In this document: positions 16,556-27,721 of the stretch, in pieces
How the letters are laid out: every line of letters begins with the position of its first letter
Position numbering within the stretch: position 1 is the first letter of the stretch
NCBI GenBank assembly: GCA_032768795.1
Contig: CP136491.1
Coordinates: 2,294,001 to 2,358,000 of the forward strand
Source of the DNA: Tremella fuciformis
Taxonomy: Eukaryota > Basidiomycota > Tremellomycetes > Tremellales > Tremellaceae
Direction: 5' to 3'
Length of the DNA: 64,000 bases
Program-made: the position numbers and the translations under genes
The notes under the pieces: model-generated
Database searches by the model: none
Told to the model about the DNA's origin: nothing
The model's input: only the letters and a program-made list of their open reading frames with translations

Positions 16556-16917
16556 GGCGCACCGCCTTAGAGTCCAGGTCTATCTGAGCGGCACAAGTGG
16601 GTCCCCTAGCCTTGAGGGGATGCTTGCGGGCAAAGACAAAGTGTGTAGCGATAAAGATGACAAGAGAATGCACTCACCTCCCATACACGCGTCAGCGCCG
16701 CCTCACGTGACTCGCGCCCAATGCCGGATTCGATTCTCCTTTTTGAATCTTCGCTTTTTGCAGGAGTTCCATCTTTCGCGGATCATAGCTCATTAAAATC
16801 TCATTATTTTGTTCTTCTCTTGAGCTGCAACAAAACGAGCAAACTGCGTGCTTCATACTGGTATGCTCAAACAGCGCATTTGTGGACTCCAATGGGAAAC
16901 GGAAATGGCAAAAACGA
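16556..16917. other. Intergenic, RPN8 upstream region
   Basis: No convincing coding segment is present. The stretch from 16740 to 16860 is A/T-rich with several T runs. The A5 at 16910-16914 is the T5 pol III terminator of the tRNA 3' half on the minus strand. Confidence 0.5.
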
Positions 16918-16957
16918 TGCGCCAACCGCGACTCGAACGCGGGTCAACTCGTTTGAA
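16918..16957 (-). tRNA. tRNA 3' half (T arm and acceptor strand), split gene
   Basis: Read on the minus strand this is CGAGT (3' side of the anticodon stem), TGAC (variable loop), CCGCG-TTCGAGT-CGCGG (a perfect 5-bp T stem with canonical loop and B box), TTGGCGC (acceptor 3' strand) and A (discriminator), followed two bases later by a GTTTTT pol III terminator. No matching 5' half lies next to it. The matching half is at 25379-25408 on the same strand, 8.4 kb away, beyond the LINE. Split inside the anticodon arm, this gene should be non-functional. Confidence 0.85.
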
Positions 16958-17213
16958 TTTCGGGATGGAAGCTTGATGCATCTTGGAGTCGCTCAGAAGT
17001 CTATGACAGCGAACGACAGATCCGAGTACTTACGTAACCGAACCGCAGGTGGTCCCGAGAGACCGAGGGGGTCCTCTTCGGCGGTGAAGAGGCTTGAAGT
17101 GATGGCGAGCACCCTCCATGGTAGTGTTATTGTGAAGTACGCGTGAAAAGATCCCCTCGGCCGCCGCGACACGAGCGCGGGGATCCCGGAGCGTTTCAGA
17201 AACAAAAGGACAG

Positions 17214-17301
17214 TACGCCATCGGGGACTCGAACCCCGCGCCGGAGCACGTACCGGACTGTGCCTGGAAAGCTCCAATGTTGACCCCTACACCAATAGCG
17301 T
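17214..17301 (-). tRNA. tRNA-Gly(UCC) with a short intron
   Basis: The minus strand folds as a complete tRNA. Acceptor ACGCTAT pairs with ATGGCGT (one G-U). The A-box-like TGGTGTAGGGGTCAACA is close to fungal tRNA-Gly(UCC). The anticodon stem is GGAGC/GCTCC with loop TTTCCA interrupted by a 16-nt intron just after the anticodon. The T arm is CGGGG-TTCGAGT-CCCCG with discriminator A. A CTTTTG run follows. The total is 88 nt. It lies between the LINE stop codon (17407) and the split-tRNA 3' half, so it is either part of the LINE 3' region or a neighbouring gene trapped there. Confidence 0.85.
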
Positions 17302-17406
17302 ATTGTACATGAAACGGCGGCGTGCTCCGCCCGGAACCAGATTGCCAATTTTCGTTGCCCCTTTCCCCCTTCGGTGGGATGGAGGTAGGGGTAGAGGTGA
17401 TCACGG

Positions 17407-20400
17407 TCAGTATTCTGCGGCGAGGTGCTTATTCCAGATCATCGCCGCTGTCCTCGTGCAGATGCCCGCAATCTTGTTGTACAGGGCGTCGTGCCCCTCC
17501 TTGTAGGCGAAATGCTTGGGCAGGGCACCTTTCCAGAAATTCGTTCTACCGCTGCCCCACATATCACAGTCGAAGAATAGCGAGTCTGCCAGCTCGACGT
17601 GGGTTGCGGTATCTTCTGCCGTCCAGTCGTCACTCTTCTCTGCGTGTGCATCGATCGCCTTGGCCACTTCGTTGTATTGCCTTTCGCGCATTCTTTGAAC
17701 GCCGGAGCAGGATACAAAAATGTGATGCTCATCAATCTGCCTCGAATCTGCAGCGCAAAGGGCGCAATGCGGAGTCCGGGGCTCGCGACCACTATGTCGC
17801 ATTCGGACCGGAGTTCCGAGGGTGTTTGACCTTGTCAGCATAGCTGTCTTGGCTGACGACGCGGATATGGCGGTCGTAAAGAGCCGCTTTTCCTGGTATC
17901 GAAGCACGTCCCCCGACACTTCAATTTCATTTCTGTGTTGCTTCTCCCACACATGGCGCAGGAAGGTGGGGACGTGAGCATGAGAAACACCCGTTTCCGG
18001 GTGGTACAGACAGTATAGATCGGCGTGATAGGCCGGGATGCGCAGTGTGATGTTGCTATCTCTGGCCTCCTTCGCCGCCTTGTCGGCTGCCGCGTTCAGG
18101 CGCGCTGCTTCTGATCTTTCGTCGGTGTGGGACTTCTGATGCACCATTTCCATGTCCGGATTCGCAATCGCCGCTTCTTGAAGCCACCGTAGGGCGTGGC
18201 GCGAAGGAAGGTGTGGTTGCACGACTATTCCTTCGAGGGTCTTGCTATCCGCCAGACGACGAATGGTGTTCAAGTGGTCAGAATAGATGACCGACTTCAG
18301 GTCGGCGGGTAGCTCGAAACGCTCGCGTATGAGGCTGTCAAGTGTCATGGCCACAGCAATCGCTGTGACCTCTGCATCCTGGATGGTCGCCAGACGGTCT
18401 CCTAGCTTGGCGCTGAAGTTGATCGGTCCGACTACCGCGAAGCCAGTTCTGCGGGCCTCTAAAGGCTTCGCATCGTCCGTACTTCCGTCGGTTGCCCAGA
18501 TCATCTTATAGTCTTTCGGGTCGATTTCAACTTCCTCCAGATCATCGACCAGGTCTTGGAGCAGTTGTTGGGTCTCGAGGTCGAGCGAAAGCCCCTCCTC
18601 GAATTTCTGCCTATGGTTGGATTTACTGTTGTGTTGTTCTTCGCTCGAGCCATCGTCCCAGGCAGGGACTATAGACAGCCCGAGGTCGATGATGTACTCC
18701 CGTGCAATCTCCCATGTGAGGAAGTTGTTCGTCCGGGGCCCATTATCCTTGCTCCACGTCACCACCGGGGCAGCGAAGGGGAGGTAGCAGCGGTGGCTGC
18801 GGATGCCGAAGCACTGCATGCTCGAGTGCATAATGGTGAAGGCATTCCGAAACGTCTCGTTCTTAGAGTTCAGGCATCGATGTAAGCCCGCGATACTCCA
18901 TACCGCGTTGAGCTTGGCAAAGTCTGGAAAGCCGAGACCACCTTGGTTTACCGGTGCGACCAGCACCTGTGGGGATGCGCCGAGCGGATGCTCGTAGTAG
19001 TCCTGTATCTTGTTGTTCACTATGGTAATGAGCCCCTTTGCCCTACGGCGCGTCATCGGGTGGGCCTGCAGCCTCGGTAGGACCTTGCCCCCGAGCGTTA
19101 CCGCTGCGATCTTGATCAGAGCTGTGATTGGTATTTTCTGCCCTGGCCTAGGAATGTTGAACGCCTGCACGATCCGCTCTATGTCAGTGCTATGGGCGTC
19201 CGGTGCGTTGATCGGCGTCTGCAGGAAGCGCCGATCTCGCGATATCGGTAGCGACACCTCCCGGCCGTCGGGGAGCGTCAAGGTTATGCTTGTGGCAGAG
19301 GATAGAGCTGAATCCCCATTGCCCTCGACCGCGGCGTCACCTGGCGTTTGACTGGGAGAGCTCCCGCTGTTCGAGCTCGAGCTTGCTTGGGAGGTAAACT
19401 TCTTCTGGTCGATCTTGTAGTTCTTGGTACTTTTCTTGGCCTTCGTCATGCGCTTGTCCGATCCGGTGTGCCCAATCAGGAACGCCGTTGTCTTGTCAGG
19501 TTTCTCCCATTCAGTCTCCATATTATAGGCCGCTTGAAAAGTTTCCATGCGTGTTGTGAGGCGTTGCAGGTCTGGGACACTCATCCCTATCAGAATTGTG
19601 TCGTCCATCGCGAGGACGAGGTTGATGACCAGAGACATGTCATCGACTGGAGTGTGCCAGTTATGCCTTTTCGCTTGGCTGAGTGGGGTCTTGAGGAGGA
19701 GCCCAACATTGGGCAGGGTGTCCTGTAGCCAGTATTGGGCCATTGCCATGACCAGAACGTATTTGATAGGGCTCATGCTGTCCCCTTGTTTGGTCAACCC
19801 TGACGTGTTGAAAGGCTCGGAGAGCATTTGGCGACATTTCACCCTGAGCTCGATATCCGTGTTTCTGGTGGTGTCGAAGTCCAGGACTGATTGTGGTAGT
19901 CCGAAGAACTCTACCGCATCCCGGAATCCGGACCGGTGCATGTAGTCGAAACCCTTCTTCTGGTCTCGTTTGAGGGCAAAGGCTGTCAAGCGTAGGTGTT
20001 TCGCGTAACCATCCATTGCATTGAGCAAATTAGTCATGTCACTGACCCGTGCGCCTGACTGCGCTGCAATCTGGGTGTCGGGTATGATTCTCATGTCCCA
20101 GAGATATTTCATGAATCGGCGATTGAACCACGATGTGACTGTGATCTGAAGGGTGTTGGCCAGCACGATTCCTCGGTAGTTTCCTGGGTCCAGAATGTCG
20201 CCCTTCTTGTATAGCGGAACGATGTAGTTGCCTTTGATCGCAGGCGGGAAGTAGTTGTGTTGTATGATGTAGTTGGCCAGAGGCGCAAGGACGGCTAGCC
20301 AGTCATCACCGCTGTGCAGCAAGGCCCACTTCTCCCAGTCTTCCGGGCCGGGGGCTGGCGTGTCGTTGCCTCGTCTGAGGACTGAGCGCAGATCAGCTAC

Positions 20401-23400
20401 GGTCATGGGTACTGGCCATTGAAATGGGTTGGCCGCGGTTGTTCGTTTGAACGTCTGAGATGCTGGGGTGCTCATCCAGGGTTTATCCATCGCAGGCGGC
20501 TCGTCGCGTTGGTATAGCTTTTGAAAATGCTTTCTCCACACCTCCATGTATTGCTTCTCTTCGTCTACGTATTGGCCCGGATTGTCCTTGTCCATGAGGA
20601 TGGGCGGAATCCTGATGGCCTGGTTTGGGCTCATGCGTTTAACTGACCCGGTCTTTATAGCCCAGGCGACTCTTGCCTCGAACTGAGCCTTTGCTCGTTC
20701 TCCTAGCGCGTCTAGCTCCAGTTTGGTGGCTTTCGCCTCCGACGCCTTCAGTAAGGCCTCGATTTTAGGCAGTACTTCCTCGGGTGGGAGCCGTGCACAG
20801 TCTTTCAAGACCTCCTTGTCAACGAAGCCGGTCCCGTGCCAGAACCGCTTCCACTTTCCCTCCGCTAGCGCTTTCTGTGCGTTATTGCACAGCTTGATAG
20901 CATGCCTTGCATGCCTTTCTTCCCTGGACATTTCACGGGGCCTAGGGGCCGCTGGCGGTGGCGGTCTCTCAAAAGTTTCCTCACAGATTGCGTGGAAGAT
21001 TTCGGACATCATCTCATATCTTTCGTCGAACTCCTCGTCGGACTGGATCTCGGTGTCCGCCAAGTGGTGCAGGTGGATGGCTTCTTTCAAGGCTGTCCGT
21101 AGGTCCTCATAGGGCCCATCATCGCCTTCCGCCGGTTTTATCAGCCGCGGTCTGTTCCGGGATGTGCTCCATTTCGCGGATTGCCGCAGAGGCAGCGGTA
21201 TGCGCGAGAACACAGCCCTGTGTTCTGTAGAGGGGATGATCTCTGTCAGTGTCTCGATGTGGCCAGCGGGCACTTCTGGGCCGATTGCGATCCTGTCGAT
21301 GATGGAATGGGTGGTCTGCGGCTCTCCTTGCTGGATGAACTTCCGGATGCAGGTGTATTGCTCCCGGAGTTCCAGCTCGTCTTGGTGCGTCCAGAGGTCG
21401 CTACCGCCGGTGTGCTCCAGGAACAGTCTGTAATAGTTCCTGTCTCCGAAGGCCAGTGTCGAGAGGCGGTGGGTTGTTGACGCCTCCTCAGGTCGAAGGA
21501 TCATGTTCATGTCCCCAGCGATGATCCATCGGGTGGAGCCTCCGGTAAGCTCTCTTACAGCTTTCCAGAAAGCTTGTGTGTTTTCGGCCACGGCCTGAGG
21601 CGCGTAGAGTCCGATGATCTGTGTCGGTACTACAGCTTTGGACCCTGCTCGATCTGGCGACCGTATCGAGATGTTCAGGATGTTCCTGCTGAAGTCTGTA
21701 TGGGGGTTCGGCAGCTGTTGCGCCGGGACCTCCTGTGCGACCCCGATCGTAACCCCTCCTCTGTTATGCGTGGCTGGGGGGGTGGTAAAGAAGTTGTACA
21801 GGTGTCGGAGCCGTCTCCAGAGATCATTGTGAACACCGTCATGGATGAGGGTCTCGGTCAATACGAATATGGTTGGTTTGTGTGCGAGTATGAGCGATGC
21901 TACCCGTTCCGCTTTTAGCGTGCCAGCAGCCGACAGGCGGTCTGTGTTGAGAGTGAGTAGTGTAAGGGTGGGGTTGGACGCTGCCTTTGCGAGCGGTAGG
22001 AGCGCAAGTATCACCCACAAAGTGTGGGGGATGAATATAACCCTTCCCCTGCGACGTTGAAGAGCAATCAGTAAAAGTAGAGCACTGCAGGCAGACGTGA
22101 GTTTCTCCATCGCCAAGCTGCCGTACTTGGACGACGCAGTGATCGCCCGTAGCTCGCTCCATGCGTTCCGAGACATTCTGCATACTGGCAAGCTGAGAAC
22201 TACCACTTCCACGCGGAGGTGCAGCGGACCAGCCGCGTCGGCCTCCGCGGATGAGAGAAACGGGTATATGAAGAGAGATCTTGTCGCTACGAGCGGCTTG
22301 CTCACACGGCGGGATCGCCACGTCGCGGTCCGCCCTGAAGTGTGAGCACAGGCATAGCAGTAGGATGGATGGCGCACGCGGATCGGCTGCTCTGCACCCC
22401 CCGAGCGGTCCTTGCGCTTCAGTGGGCTAGAGACGTTGGGGTTGCCAAAAAAGTTGGACGGGCCAGGCTGGTTCAGGCGAAGCGCCGTGGGCCGGTGTGA
22501 GGCTCTGAAGGTGAAGGCGGGCTCTATCCTTGACGGCGGCGCCGGGTCGGACAGAGTGAAGCCCGCCATGAACGGGTTCGACGCGGCGAGCGACTGGTCG
22601 GGCACGCCGCGAGTGTTGGTCTTCTTGAGGATCTGGCCCTTGACAACCTTCAAATCTTCGTCAAGACGACGCCTCTTCTCCTGCGCCGCTGGCGAGTGGT
22701 CGTTCTGGCTAGCGAGATCGCGGATCTTCCGGACGAGAGAACGCTCCTCCGACTGGAGGATGGCCAGGTCGCGCGTTCTGTCGCGCTCGAGCATCATGCG
22801 GAAGCCATTGGCGGTGCCAGCGGCGAGAACATTGAGTTTTCCGTCGGTTCGCTTCTCGCTGCTCAGGATCAAAGCCTCAATGGCCTCACGATCCTCGATT
22901 CTCTCGGCGAAACGCTCCGTCTCCTGATACTTCCTCAGCAGCGCGAGCCGTCGCTCATGGATGTTCTTCCTATTGAAGTTGCTGCTCTGCTCGTTGAGGT
23001 CGTAGACCCGCTCGCAGAAGAAGCCGTTGCCCTGCGGCATCTGGCAAAGGTAGGTGGCGAAGTGGGCTTCGCTCGGCTCGAACAAGAAGAATCTGCCATC
23101 GTCGGAGAGGCCAGGTTCGCCGATGCCAACCTTGACATTGAACTTCTGCTCATACTCCTTTGCTAACTCTTCGAGGCCGAGCCGATAGGTATCGTCGCTC
23201 GTGCAAGCATCGTCACCGATGTATAGCGCCAGAGCTGTGAAGTAGTGAGGCTGAATGAACCGCGGGCGGCTGAAAGAGACTCTATATCCGTTGTCCAAGA
23301 CGAAGGGCGATTTCTCCGCCAGACGCTTGGCCCTGAAGGGGCGAGTCTCCGCACAGGCTCCAGTCATGATACCGGTAGACCTGTCCCTCTGCCAGTTCCA

Positions 23401-25188
23401 TTTGTGCGCCAAAGTGCATCTCTCCTTGGTGAACACGCTCTCGAGCGTTGTATCGGCTACCGTTTTGGTCAGCTTGCTGATTAGCTTGGAGTCGATCTCA
23501 ACGCCGAGCGGAGGCCGGATCTCGTAGTTGAGAGCGGTGAGCCTGTCGTTGCCTTGGGCTGTGGCGAAGTGACACTCATAGCCGGCGTTCTCGCAGGCCA
23601 GCAGCACCGCCGCGAGGCAATCCTGGGACACTCGGCCATACTCGAGGTCGTTCGCCGAAAACGAGACCATTGCCGTGCTGTCCTTGCGATCAGAGGCCTT
23701 GTTGGCATTATCGAAGATAAGCTTGTCCAGCGGGACGCGAATCGGATTGGTCGAGCCGGAGAAGGGGTTGGGCGTGGCGTAGATCGGACCAAGACTGTGC
23801 ACAATGCGGTGCGCCTCGTCTCTGGCTGAGTGCTTGGTTGAGTCATCGAGCTCGTAGATCTTGAAGGACCACGGTGCCCATACCTCGGCTAGTTCGCGCG
23901 GCAGGGGCGCCACAGTGCCAGGGGCGATTGCCTTGGGCTTGACGAGCAGAGAGGTGGCGACGAAGGCGCCGGGAGGGGGAGGAGGAGGTGGGGCAGGCCC
24001 CGCCCCGCGAGCGCCGAGGGGAGGGTTAGAAGAAGTCGACAGCGGCCGGCCAGGATCGCCGTCACGAGGAGGGTTGGGCGGTGCCAAGGCAGGGCCATCG
24101 GGAGGGCCGTTGGGAGGACCATTGGGAGGATCATTGGGAGGACCGTTGGGAGGACCATTGGAAGGACCATTGGGAGGGCTACCAAAAGGACCGTTGGGAG
24201 ATCCACCAAGAGGAGCTTGGAGAGGACCGCCGGGAACGACATTGGGAGGACCGCCGGCTGAGCCGTTGGGTGGGTCGTCAAGCGCACGAGACGGAGTGAG
24301 AGGGGTGCGGTTGTCGAGCGGCTCCGAGACTTCTGTAGGCGACAGAGTGTTACCGAGGAGAAGAGGGAAGGCAGCCGTGCCAGCCGCCCCGGTCGATCCT
24401 GCAAGGAATTCCCTGACGCGATCTGGATTGGGATAACCGCCAAGGGGATCATGCTGTTCAGTCAACAGCTGTCCGTCCCCGCCGGTATGAGTCGATCCGT
24501 TCTGCGTGTGCTCGTCATCAACGTCGACTAGCTCTTCATCCTCGAAAGGGAGCAAAGCGTTGCCGTCTCCGGCAAAGTCACCGAGGGGCTCGTCGATGTC
24601 CATGTTGGACATGCTGATGCTGGTCAAAGGAGGTAGTAACTGTGTCAAAGGAAGAGTGGGCGATAGGTACTTCGCGCTCTCATCTGCGGTCTCATTATGT
24701 ATTTTGACCGTAGTTGTGGGCGATTCTTTTGTCTCGCTACGGTACAATAGCTTCAGGTCTCCTTCCTGAAACGCGGGGGGATTGGGAACAATAGAGAAGT
24801 GGTCTGTCCTCCCGGCCGGGCCCGGGATGACTTCCCGAGGCCTTTTGTTCTTGTGCGAGAGGTCAGAGTGGGTGAGGCTGCCTGGCAAGTTGGGATAGTC
24901 TGGAGGTCCTGGTCGCCACCCAGAGATCCCCACGTCGGTCTCACCGGTGTACGTGGGCTGCTCAGCGTAGGCATAGAGGTGATGTGCAGAGCGAGCGTCA
25001 TGAGCGCCGCTGACCTGCCCCTCACATGCAGTGAGGGTGATAATAGTAGTAGAGGTAGTGTTGGTAGCCTGAGACGGCACACCGCTCCTGCAGGACGCGG
25101 AGGTGAGACCTCGACTCCCGTAGGCAGTCGGGCAAAGTGTTGGTAGGAAAACGAGCAATTGGGCGATCTTCACCGGGAAGTCACGCAT
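17407..25188 (-). CDS. LINE polyprotein: ORF1-like region fused to APE-RT-RNase H
   Basis: One open frame of 2593 residues. Approximate positions: a Ser/Thr-rich leader; MSNMDIDEPL near 192, a possible true ORF1 start; Pro-rich PPNGPPNG repeats at about 305-372; a basic, helical ORF1-like part to about 925; MSRNAWSEL near 1003, a possible ORF2 start; APE domain from TLLTLNTDRL near 1080, with LTETL, GLYAP, IIAGDMNMIL near 1224 and STEHRAV (canonical SDH replaced by TEH); RT with ALKRDQKKGFDYM (motif A, about 1743), TKQGDSMSP (motif B, about 1803) and LAMDDTILIG (motif C, about 1865; MDD instead of F/YADD); RNase H with WATDGSTDD (about 2234), DAEVTA, YSDHLNT and a late His/Asp-rich segment; and a zinc knuckle (HCALCAADSRQ...HHIFVSC) near 2480. 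Most LINEs separate ORF1 and ORF2, so the fusion is unusual. Confidence 0.9.
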   Translation of the reverse strand: MRDFPVKIAQLLVFLPTLCPTAYGSRGLTSASCRSGVPSQATNTTSTTIITLTACEGQVSGAHDARSAHHLYAYAEQPTYTGETDVGISGWRPGPPDYPNLPGSLTHSDLSHKNKRPREVIPGPAGRTDHFSIVPNPPAFQEGDLKLLYRSETKESPTTTVKIHNETADESAKYLSPTLPLTQLLPPLTSISMSNMDIDEPLGDFAGDGNALLPFEDEELVDVDDEHTQNGSTHTGGDGQLLTEQHDPLGGYPNPDRVREFLAGSTGAAGTAAFPLLLGNTLSPTEVSEPLDNRTPLTPSRALDDPPNGSAGGPPNVVPGGPLQAPLGGSPNGPFGSPPNGPSNGPPNGPPNDPPNGPPNGPPDGPALAPPNPPRDGDPGRPLSTSSNPPLGARGAGPAPPPPPPPGAFVATSLLVKPKAIAPGTVAPLPRELAEVWAPWSFKIYELDDSTKHSARDEAHRIVHSLGPIYATPNPFSGSTNPIRVPLDKLIFDNANKASDRKDSTAMVSFSANDLEYGRVSQDCLAAVLLACENAGYECHFATAQGNDRLTALNYEIRPPLGVEIDSKLISKLTKTVADTTLESVFTKERCTLAHKWNWQRDRSTGIMTGACAETRPFRAKRLAEKSPFVLDNGYRVSFSRPRFIQPHYFTALALYIGDDACTSDDTYRLGLEELAKEYEQKFNVKVGIGEPGLSDDGRFFLFEPSEAHFATYLCQMPQGNGFFCERVYDLNEQSSNFNRKNIHERRLALLRKYQETERFAERIEDREAIEALILSSEKRTDGKLNVLAAGTANGFRMMLERDRTRDLAILQSEERSLVRKIRDLASQNDHSPAAQEKRRRLDEDLKVVKGQILKKTNTRGVPDQSLAASNPFMAGFTLSDPAPPSRIEPAFTFRASHRPTALRLNQPGPSNFFGNPNVSSPLKRKDRSGGAEQPIRVRHPSYCYACAHTSGRTATWRSRRVSKPLVATRSLFIYPFLSSAEADAAGPLHLRVEVVVLSLPVCRMSRNAWSELRAITASSKYGSLAMEKLTSACSALLLLIALQRRRGRVIFIPHTLWVILALLPLAKAASNPTLTLLTLNTDRLSAAGTLKAERVASLILAHKPTIFVLTETLIHDGVHNDLWRRLRHLYNFFTTPPATHNRGGVTIGVAQEVPAQQLPNPHTDFSRNILNISIRSPDRAGSKAVVPTQIIGLYAPQAVAENTQAFWKAVRELTGGSTRWIIAGDMNMILRPEEASTTHRLSTLAFGDRNYYRLFLEHTGGSDLWTHQDELELREQYTCIRKFIQQGEPQTTHSIIDRIAIGPEVPAGHIETLTEIIPSTEHRAVFSRIPLPLRQSAKWSTSRNRPRLIKPAEGDDGPYEDLRTALKEAIHLHHLADTEIQSDEEFDERYEMMSEIFHAICEETFERPPPPAAPRPREMSREERHARHAIKLCNNAQKALAEGKWKRFWHGTGFVDKEVLKDCARLPPEEVLPKIEALLKASEAKATKLELDALGERAKAQFEARVAWAIKTGSVKRMSPNQAIRIPPILMDKDNPGQYVDEEKQYMEVWRKHFQKLYQRDEPPAMDKPWMSTPASQTFKRTTAANPFQWPVPMTVADLRSVLRRGNDTPAPGPEDWEKWALLHSGDDWLAVLAPLANYIIQHNYFPPAIKGNYIVPLYKKGDILDPGNYRGIVLANTLQITVTSWFNRRFMKYLWDMRIIPDTQIAAQSGARVSDMTNLLNAMDGYAKHLRLTAFALKRDQKKGFDYMHRSGFRDAVEFFGLPQSVLDFDTTRNTDIELRVKCRQMLSEPFNTSGLTKQGDSMSPIKYVLVMAMAQYWLQDTLPNVGLLLKTPLSQAKRHNWHTPVDDMSLVINLVLAMDDTILIGMSVPDLQRLTTRMETFQAAYNMETEWEKPDKTTAFLIGHTGSDKRMTKAKKSTKNYKIDQKKFTSQASSSSNSGSSPSQTPGDAAVEGNGDSALSSATSITLTLPDGREVSLPISRDRRFLQTPINAPDAHSTDIERIVQAFNIPRPGQKIPITALIKIAAVTLGGKVLPRLQAHPMTRRRAKGLITIVNNKIQDYYEHPLGASPQVLVAPVNQGGLGFPDFAKLNAVWSIAGLHRCLNSKNETFRNAFTIMHSSMQCFGIRSHRCYLPFAAPVVTWSKDNGPRTNNFLTWEIAREYIIDLGLSIVPAWDDGSSEEQHNSKSNHRQKFEEGLSLDLETQQLLQDLVDDLEEVEIDPKDYKMIWATDGSTDDAKPLEARRTGFAVVGPINFSAKLGDRLATIQDAEVTAIAVAMTLDSLIRERFELPADLKSVIYSDHLNTIRRLADSKTLEGIVVQPHLPSRHALRWLQEAAIANPDMEMVHQKSHTDERSEAARLNAAADKAAKEARDSNITLRIPAYHADLYCLYHPETGVSHAHVPTFLRHVWEKQHRNEIEVSGDVLRYQEKRLFTTAISASSAKTAMLTRSNTLGTPVRMRHSGREPRTPHCALCAADSRQIDEHHIFVSCSGVQRMRERQYNEVAKAIDAHAEKSDDWTAEDTATHVELADSLFFDCDMWGSGRTNFWKGALPKHFAYKEGHDALYNKIAGICTRTAAMIWNKHLAAEY

Positions 25189-25312
25189 TTCGATGCTTCA
25201 AAGACGTGCTGGGATGCGCGGGGAGTGCTGGGATACGATAGCGACACGAAGAGATGCTTGCGATATGGCGATTCGCGAGTAAATCGACAAAGATGTGAAT
25301 CGCATTCGTCGA

Positions 25313-25377
25313 TAAAGTAAAGTAAAGTAAAGTAAAGTAAAGTAAAGTAAAGTAAAGTAAAGTAAAGTAAAGTAAAG
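25313..25377. repeat. Perfect microsatellite (TAAAG)13
   Basis: Thirteen uninterrupted TAAAG units (CTTTA on the minus strand) sit exactly at the junction between the 5' end of the LINE and the 5' half of the split tRNA. On the minus strand the first CTTT coincides with what would be the start of the tRNA anticodon loop, so the tract may have grown by slippage from target sequence during insertion. Confidence 0.95.
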
Positions 25378-25378
25378 T

Positions 25379-25408
25379 GAGTTATCCTAACCACTAGACT
25401 ATTGGCGC
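25379..25408 (-). tRNA. tRNA 5' half (acceptor strand and D arm), split gene
   Basis: On the minus strand: GCGCCAA (acceptor 5' strand, perfect complement of TTGGCGC at 16919-16925), TA, then the D arm with A box GTCTAGTGGTTAGGAT, then A and ACTC. ACTC pairs with GAGT of the 3' half at 16947-16950. The D arm resembles fungal tRNA-Glu/Gln/Asp genes. The following CTTT hints at Glu(UUC), but the anticodon lies at the breakpoint and cannot be read safely. Just upstream, TTGGCGC and GCGCCAA (25402-25408 and 25413-25419 on the plus strand) form a 7-bp palindrome with a TTTT spacer. Confidence 0.85.
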
Positions 25409-27721
25409 TTTTGCGCCAAAATGGCGGGTTTGATGTCTATATTCTGTTTGGCAGCAGGCTGCCCGAGGTGGTGGGATTAGAGGTACAATTATCGCAGATC
25501 GACTGGCTGGTCTGGAGTCCCTTTACAATCTCGTCGGCATGTTTCTGACGACCACCAATGACGGCAATTACTCCTACTCACAATGATAGAGACCCATGGT
25601 GCAAGTGAGACAGGCGGGATTCTCCGCGTGACCGCGTAGGCTGAGCCCAAAACCAGACGATCGTGTTTGGATTGTCTGCTGCTAGTGCTTCAGAGACACG
25701 GAATGGGGTGAGAGACTGCGGCCGAGGTGCTAGCCCTGCAACCCGAACGCAATATGTGGAGCACGGCTCACAATAAGCGTAAAGAGTAGAACGGCCACTG
25801 TAGCCGGGAGTGATCAACATGGGGAACGCGACGATGACCGAGAGAAAGCGCCTGTCGAGAGTTTGGTATAATGTAGCCTGAGCCGTGTCCCTCCGGAAGT
25901 TGCGTGCCTAATTGAGGGCAATGCGCAACGAGCGAGCTTTCGGGGCGACAGCTCCGGGGGCGCCGTCCCTCAAACCTGGACTCTGAAACTACTAGCCCCC
26001 TCCCCGGCGCTGCCCTTCCGGACCTTCGGCACGAGACACCTAGCGTCTAACGTGCTGTGCAAGGAGCCCTTGATGCTCTGACGTGTACTTACTCGTATCC
26101 GGGAAGGATCACGGCGGTTGTGGTACCCTGCCACCAGCAGAGCGATATACAGTTGCCGATTGCTCAAGGGAAGAGTCAGAATCTATAAGCGCAACGAGAG
26201 CTGTATCATTGTCTGCTCGGTCGGCTTGAGCGATACCAAGCGGTGATGGCAGGTTTCTCGCTAAAAGAGGTCATCGATCAGATCCTATATGAAGTACTCG
26301 CCGGCGTTATCACCGACAAGGTGGTGTGCATGGTCGCAAGCACGCGGAGAAGCATTCAGCCGCCTTGGAGTTTCCTCCTACGCCATGGAGAAGCTATGCC
26401 ATTCACGGCCGAAAGGCTCTCCAATCAGTTGCGTGATACCTGATGGTCAGTCCAAAGGTCCATGTGTTGTTACAAAGGAACAGACCGCAAACTCTGCGAT
26501 AGGCAATCAAATGAGTGATGGAGTGTTTTGCGGATTGCATAAGCCGAGAGGGTGAGGATTGGGTGCGTCGCGATTATCTGGATCACTTGGAGGGATCGCA
26601 AGGTGGACACACATGCTCGTTCCGCTACCGATGCGATGCATCTGGGTGTGTCACTAGCGGCTGCTTCGAAGTATCAAAGAACGCGGAGGAAAGACGACAG
26701 TATGGTACGATCCCTTCCTGAGTTATTCGAAGGCGTGAAGGTGAGCTGGGCCATCTCCGACGCAGAAAAGGAGCAGGACCCGTCGAAGGCAGAATGGAGC
26801 GTACACATCACTGCTGGGCCCAGCTAAAATACGACCGTCGCTTGTTGCTCTTGCCGACCTGGGCACCGGTGTCTATGAGTCTTGTAAAGAGGAGGGATGT
26901 TAGAAATGGGAAGTGGGACGTACTCAAGGCCTCGGTGATTCAAAAAGCCCGGAGAGGACAGATTATGGGTGTGGCACGATCCGACAAGCGGCGACGGCAG
27001 GATCGCAGGATGACAGCTGGTCCGGACACTATGCACCCATCGAGTCGTCTCTGAGGACAGGCCCGCAAGACCAGTGCATCAATGTGCCCTGCGATGTCAA
27101 ATTGATGGGTCCTCGTTCGCAGCGGCCACCCTTGATCGGAAACATTTGGGGGTGGCCCTAGTGCCTTTGCATCAAAGGTCCGCGGAAACCACCCCATGAG
27201 GAGGGCGAGACTTTTTAGCGGAGCGTCGCCAGCGTCTCTTGCGCGAGGAACAAGGGCACACGTGCGAGTGAGTGATCCGTGCGGCGACGCACGTAGATTT
27301 TTGCCCTGTCCCTGGTACTTGGGAAAGGAGGGAGGGTGGGGGTGGGTGACGAGAAGGCAATCTCCTTTGTTTCCACCACGTCCTATGGTCTGCCCTGCCC
27401 GTGCGGAGATCAATCAAGCATCGTCGCCTCTCCTGGTCAGGTATAACCGAGCCGAGAGCTTCGGAACACAGCGAGCCGATCGGACCACGGTCGATTTGGC
27501 CATGGCCGTGCGCGATCACCCGTCCGGTCGCGTCACTGTGAACCGCAACCCAACGACCAAGCGCATCACGGTGCTCTCTCGTCCTGCTCGTAACGACTGT
27601 ACCCCTTGCAGGTCCTCGGTCATGCACCAGCGTTCCTGCTCGCGACGGAAGTACTTGCTCTGATAAAGAGCGCTCCATTCGATGAAAGGCTCCATACCAA
27701 GCTCCCACCCTTCCGAACAAC
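25409..27721. other. 2.3-kb region without recognisable gene
   Basis: Only short, unrelated ORFs in all frames; none shows a family motif, a plausible splice chain or a consistent coding pattern over more than about 100 codons. The segment 27200-27700 is G/C-rich with competing ORFs on both strands. It may hold promoter sequence of the SDR gene at 27722, decayed sequence or a non-coding transcript; I cannot distinguish these. Confidence 0.5.

Follow-up and report, generated by a model that had tools for sequence, protein, structure and literature searches.

The window analysed here is a stretch of 64,000 nucleotides of Tremella fuciformis DNA (C2:2294001-2358000 in a searched genome of 28.14 Mb and 11 contigs). 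It contains a long interspersed nuclear element (LINE), designated W, which lies between the two halves of a broken tRNA gene together with a second, intact tRNA gene. The features of the locus and the related elements of the same genome are compiled in Table 1.

Table 1. Features of the W locus (window positions) and LINE relatives in the genome (contig positions). For the elements, the tRNA gene inside or adjoining is given with its Rfam score in bits and the distance in nt from the stop codon (excluded) to the tRNA.
Feature	Position	Strand	Remarks
Broken tRNA, 5′ half	25379..25408	-	acceptor GCGCCAA, D arm with A box, ACTC of anticodon stem; GCGCCAATAGTCTAGTGGTTAGGATAACTC
(ACTTT)13 at 5′ junction of insert	25314..25378	-	
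LINE open frame	17407..25188	-	2593 aa from first ATG, stop included
APE-type endonuclease domain PF03372	21463..21954	-	residues 1079-1242; 29.2 bits, cut-off 24.5
Reverse transcriptase domain PF00078	19489..20205	-	residues 1662-1900; 30.1 bits, cut-off 29.6
Enclosed intact tRNA-Gly(TCC)	17214..17301	-	16-nt intron; ARAGORN; RF00005 36.8 bits, gathering score 29, no non-standard pair
Interval from enclosed tRNA to 3′ half	16952..17213	-	262 nt; part of it may be left over from the loop or intron of the target
Broken tRNA, 3′ half	16918..16951	-	anticodon stem, variable loop, T arm with B box, TTGGCGC, A73; CGAGTTGACCCGCGTTCGAGTCGCGGTTGGCGCA
T5, Pol III terminator-like	16910..16914	-	
W, copy inside the window (span of the window given)	C2:2294001-2358000		Gly(TCC); 36.8 bits; 105 nt
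C1	C1:2.60 Mb		Pro(TGG); 271 nt
C2	C2:0.98 Mb		Arg(TCT), 5′ side, anticodon read by eye; 47.8 bits
C5	C5:1.27 Mb		Pro(AGG); 49.1 bits; 101 nt
C5b	C5:1.60 Mb		Arg(TCG), inverted, anticodon read by eye; 37.9 bits; 1347 nt
C3	C3:1.89 Mb		Gln(TTG) read by eye, ARAGORN calls Glu; 54.5 bits; 338 nt
C5r, remnant	C5:1.33 Mb		Ser(GCT); 40.9 bits
C1f, truncated piece	C1:3.16 Mb		Arg(CCG), inverted; 44.5 bits; 89 nt
C6 cluster	C6:438-484 kb		

The acceptor stem of the broken tRNA pairs across the insert in 7/7 positions and the T arm in 5/5, and ACTC of the anticodon stem pairs with GAGT. A structural script, which searches the upstream side of the open reading frame (ORF) for a 5′ half and the downstream side for a 3′ half, gave this single pair in the flanks of W, while none of 200 Markov-shuffled flank pairs yielded any. 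An earlier note on this DNA had placed a LINE of about 8.4 kb in the anticodon arm of an RNA polymerase III (Pol III) gene, and this is borne out: the insert measures 8424 nt, provided that the break follows ACTCACT. The ACT next after the 5′ half (25378-25376) is assignable either to the tRNA or to the repeat. The 3′ half had been drawn from 16957 to 16918; the part 16951-16918 was confirmed, but TTCAAA at 16957-16952 may belong to the loop, to an intron or to the element instead of the stem. At 25402-25419, two arms of 7 bp around a 4-nt spacer (TTGGCGC AAAA GCGCCAA, minus strand) form a perfect palindrome, which overlaps the start of the 5′ half.

The intact copy of the broken tRNA for which the earlier note recommended a search does not turn up, as each half matched only itself genome-wide with up to three mismatches allowed. 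The 5′ kb of the LINE, its 3′ kb and the 3′ flank were each single copy in the genome (self match only). The perfect pairing of the halves and the lack of an intact twin would suit a tRNA that is still functional, with a giant intron or by trans-splicing. This is hardly credible in view of the 11 runs of T4 or longer on the coding strand of the insert, each a possible Pol III stop, and of the tRNA broken by the relative C2, in which the acceptor stem already has a mismatch. The halves of six elements were scored against 36 tRNAs collected from the genome, enclosed ones included. Those of W scored best with Thr(TGT) (25) and Glu (22), so that the broken gene can be described as Thr- or Glu-like. 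A reading as Gly, based on G1-C72 and A73, conflicts with these scores and with the Gly(GCC) and Gly(CCC) tRNAs of this genome, which begin with A, and was abandoned.

The W protein has both hallmarks of non-long-terminal-repeat elements of the apurinic/apyrimidinic endonuclease (APE) type, namely a reverse transcriptase (RT) and an APE domain upstream of it, each above the Pfam cut-off. An RNase H domain was not matched in the Pfam scan of W; PF00075 was detected with 22.5 bits, below the cut-off of 25.8, in the Kwoniella relative P0004 only, out of three relatives scanned. The nearest named relative is a hypothetical protein of Kwoniella newhampshirensis (IAR55_006511) with 38% identity over 98% of the query, which is indicative of Tremellomycetes and fits the "yeast-like basidiomycete" of the earlier note. 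A profile search returned three proteins, all of them already among the five from the first protein search. A search of the PDB gave no matches, and a single scan of viral contigs with one protein revealed no relatives. In an RT tree of 17 rows, reference sequences of named LINE clades (e.g. Tad1) not being among them, W fell into a 100/100 group with P0001-P0005, C1, C5, C2 and C5b, its place within the group not being settled by the tree. C5 and C1 were sisters (100/99), as were C5b and C2 (93/90, under the star level of the tool), and C3 grouped with the C6 relatives.

A protein search of the genome gave 33 matches including the window, and those above 250 bits were 33-51% identical. The half-finding script was run on seven elements (W, C1, C2, C5, C5b, C3 and C5r), C1f and the C6 cluster lying outside this run. 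Half pairs were found around W, C2 (acceptor 6/7) and C5b (7/7), and no pair appeared in 200 shuffles of the flanks of any of the seven elements. At C1f, the halves were seen by eye, the 5′ half from C1:3162471 and the 3′ half at 3163394-3163428, with an acceptor pairing of 7/7 including one G-T. Both halves are present at these four loci, which are independent copies in different tRNA genes. At all four, the LINE has the same direction as the broken tRNA, the break lies at about nucleotide 30-34 (positions by eye) and the insert starts at the break. Two of the copies, C5b and C1f, are 5′-truncated. The 5′ junction of C2 carries (ATCTTC)7, comparable to the repeat of W. C5 has a tRNA 3′ half 338 nt beyond its enclosed tRNA, and no 5′ half was found for it. 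An inverted copy of the 5′ half of the tRNA broken by C2 was noticed about 100 nt upstream of that half (C2:990065-990020 region, L071).

The earlier note had suggested a site-specific lineage, recognisable by the same tRNA and breakpoint around other copies. What recurs is a nearly identical breakpoint at four loci, but not the same tRNA, and C1, C5, C3 and C5r have no pair. Since the family members sit in different tRNA genes, the specificity would be for the anticodon arm and not for a single gene. Random insertion with no preferred target, or an assembly artefact, would account for the C6 relatives and several others that lack tRNA halves; with halves in the same orientation and with a similar break at four different loci, it is nevertheless very improbable.

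The earlier note rightly recognised the LINE. It overlooked the intact tRNA-Gly(TCC) that the insert contains, and enclosed tRNA genes of this kind are what is most unusual about these elements. One intact tRNA lies between the halves at each of the four loci. Outside the C6 array, all eight elements, W counted, have a tRNA gene inside or adjoining. The tRNAs of seven of the eight pass the Rfam gathering score, with one non-standard pair in that of C3 and none in the other six; that of C1 was absent from the Rfam matches at E 0.1. A large Rfam search gave only the C3 and C5r tRNAs among those present. Its silence proves little because smaller searches revealed tRNAs which it omitted. A D-arm pattern search had two matches, the C3 tRNA and one that is not readable as a tRNA. 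The tRNA census covers 63 of 484 candidates, whose scoring with Rfam gave 26 loci, and, from another search, the first part of 121 matches. As a control, the surroundings of the 26 Rfam loci were inspected. LINE coding sequence was found within 1.5 kb of one of the 26, and this one is the C3 element; thus, the association of tRNAs and LINEs is not general crowding. ARAGORN predicted an intron in 23 of these 26 tRNA genes (L044-L069). W, C5 and C2 share the word TTACGTA in their 3′ segments, and it occurs in tRNA introns too.

With moderate confidence, we read these elements as an APE-type LINE lineage that targets the anticodon arms of tRNA genes and whose inserts carry an intact tRNA gene, mostly with an intron, perhaps kept as a replacement for the lost one. 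The targeting of the anticodon arm is well supported by the sequences; a rescue role of the enclosed tRNA is inferred. The APE would nick the anticodon arm, and the LINE would be inserted by target-primed reverse transcription in the orientation of the tRNA, thereby breaking the gene. The repeats at the two 5′ junctions of W and C2 could stem from slippage. The tRNA would travel within the transcript of the element and would be under selection, since insertions that hit a low-copy tRNA gene would not persist without it. The sister pairs of the RT tree, C5 and C1 with Pro tRNAs and C5b and C2 with Arg tRNAs, fit a tRNA that is inherited along with its element. The distances of 105, 101 and 89 nt from the stop codon to the tRNA in W, C5 and C1f also speak for this reading.

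Several observations weigh against this reading. No half pair was found by the script around four of the seven elements tested (C1, C5, C3 and C5r), and the C6 relatives have neither tRNA nor T arm in the C6 stretches examined. These relatives (C6:438181-484457) stand head to tail on one strand, e.g. with an ORF end at 451013 and the next ORF start at 450884, and are perhaps a sister lineage with another target. A clear target-site duplication was not seen at the four loci, where 5′ flank and 3′ junction share words of 3-6 nt; target-specific LINEs can, however, be without such a duplication. Place and direction of the tRNA vary: C2 has it on the 5′ side, C5b and C1f have it in inverted orientation, and in C1, C3 and C5b it follows the stop codon at 271-1347 nt. 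The untranslated regions around the tRNA have no significant DNA similarity between elements (best 25.4 bits versus a shuffled maximum of 28.3 and mean of 23.5). The C-terminus of C1f is closest to C1 (57.4 bits) and then to C5 (45.4 bits), yet its tRNA is Arg and not Pro. Finally, the scores against the 36 tRNAs speak for a matching replacement in some of the elements only. The enclosed Gly of W is not among the top seven matches to the halves of W. The 3′ half of C5 is best with the L079 tRNA (23; Val(AAC) as read by eye), its enclosed tRNA not being in the top seven, although C73 had suggested a Pro target. The 5′ piece of C5r is too weak to judge (best score 9, own tRNA 6).

In a second explanation, the LINE targets anticodon arms and the enclosed tRNAs are passive passengers, e.g. 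pre-tRNAs copied by the LINE RT via template switching, without any rescue role. The difference between enclosed and broken tRNA in W and C5 and the variable position and direction of the tRNAs speak for it. So do two loci elsewhere in the genome, L044 upstream of tRNA-Val(TAC) and L066 upstream of tRNA-Ser(CGA), where a 5′ tRNA half is followed immediately by an intact tRNA and no LINE sequence lies within 1.5 kb. They look like tRNA genes nested in tRNA genes; apparently, therefore, one tRNA gene can enter another by itself. A matching 3′ half was not found at either of them in a looser scan near the 26 tRNA loci, which missed even halves seen by eye. On the other hand, the own enclosed tRNA was the best match in three of the six elements scored, all with Arg. 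Two cases are clear and the third is probable, with best and next scores of 48 versus 37 for C2, 64.5 versus 32.5 for C5b and 35 versus 31 for C1f. Moreover, random passengers need not be intact, as most of the enclosed tRNAs are by their Rfam scores. Passive carriage is possible but, on balance, doubtful.

A third explanation comprises two steps, a tRNA nested in another tRNA first and a LINE arriving later beside the inner tRNA as TRE elements do, so that the inner tRNA would be a landmark and not cargo. In W and C5, the 3′ end of the LINE indeed faces the intact tRNA at a distance of about 100 nt, nested tRNAs without a LINE exist, and no halves were found around C1 and C3. It is considered unlikely, as the C2 LINE abuts the tRNA break at both of its ends, its intact tRNA being on the 5′ side, and the inserts of W, C2, C5b and C1f begin at the break.

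If the targeting lineage with a kept replacement tRNA is taken further, the elements could be natural self-rescuing LINEs, which would destroy low-copy tRNA genes at the anticodon and bring along a diverged intact tRNA. An isoacceptor could come to depend on such a tRNA alone, which would make the tRNA essential, and the element could then not be lost. This is put forward only tentatively. The only Gly(TCC) gene found for the window lies in the LINE, and by the usual decoding rules GGA codons need the anticodon TCC. In the genome, 46 sequences matched a pattern that combines T33, the anticodon TCC and a B box (reversed control 143), and only the enclosed gene among them reads as Gly(TCC). The B box used occurs in 21 of 26 known tRNAs, and a second Gly(TCC) gene could have been missed because the other five lack it. 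Cleave-and-rescue gene drives are engineered selfish units which break a gene and carry a working diverged version of it. The elements described here would resemble them in breaking a gene and carrying a diverged version of it, but they are natural LINEs and the two tRNAs match in only part of the copies.

Other tRNA-like structures were noted in the genome. A unit of B box and terminator, GGTTCGATTCCTGGTTGGGGTACACTTTTT, is repeated about every 2.5-2.8 kb at several contig ends among the matches listed, for example at C1:4992-10092, C3:5851-8533, C5:2471-8036 and C6:2291824-2299383. ARAGORN called no tRNA at these units; at L083, a tRNA-like D arm lies upstream of one. L046 contains an inverted 89-bp duplication (1443-1531 and 1733-1820, 96.6% identity) that takes in the 3′ half of tRNA-Ala(TGC) as well as the flank downstream of this half.

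Two known systems are close to the elements described here. The LINEs TRE5, TRE3, NLTR-A and NLTR-B of social amoebae are likewise APE- and RT-containing elements that choose tRNA genes in gene-dense genomes, and they insert 2-6 bp to about 150 bp outside the tRNA, which stays intact (PMC5911963). In W, C2, C5b and C1f, the insertion is inside the tRNA and the tRNA itself is cut; an enclosed tRNA gene is not mentioned for the amoeba elements in the consulted portion of that article (PMC5911963). The Dada DNA transposons of fish insert inside multicopy tRNA genes, some of them around the anticodon, with families for different tRNAs (PMC8869645). They differ in being DNA transposons, in an orientation opposite to the tRNA at the anticodon site and in that the sections of the article consulted mention no enclosed tRNA (PMC8869645). 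Dada elements have a DNA transposase and no RT, while W has RT and APE. Among the best-ranked openly licensed PMC titles and abstract beginnings, there was no description of a LINE that lies in the anticodon arm of a tRNA or that has a tRNA gene enclosed.

As far as the amoeba elements are described in the part consulted, known tRNA-targeting LINEs avoid harm by landing beside tRNA genes, whereas the lineage in T. fuciformis lands inside them (PMC5911963). Survival of the host becomes a direct question because the LINE breaks a tRNA for which no intact twin was found in the genome. If it is the enclosed tRNAs that work, part of the decoding machinery would have passed to a retrotransposon family, and LINE insertions would carry tRNA genes around the genome.

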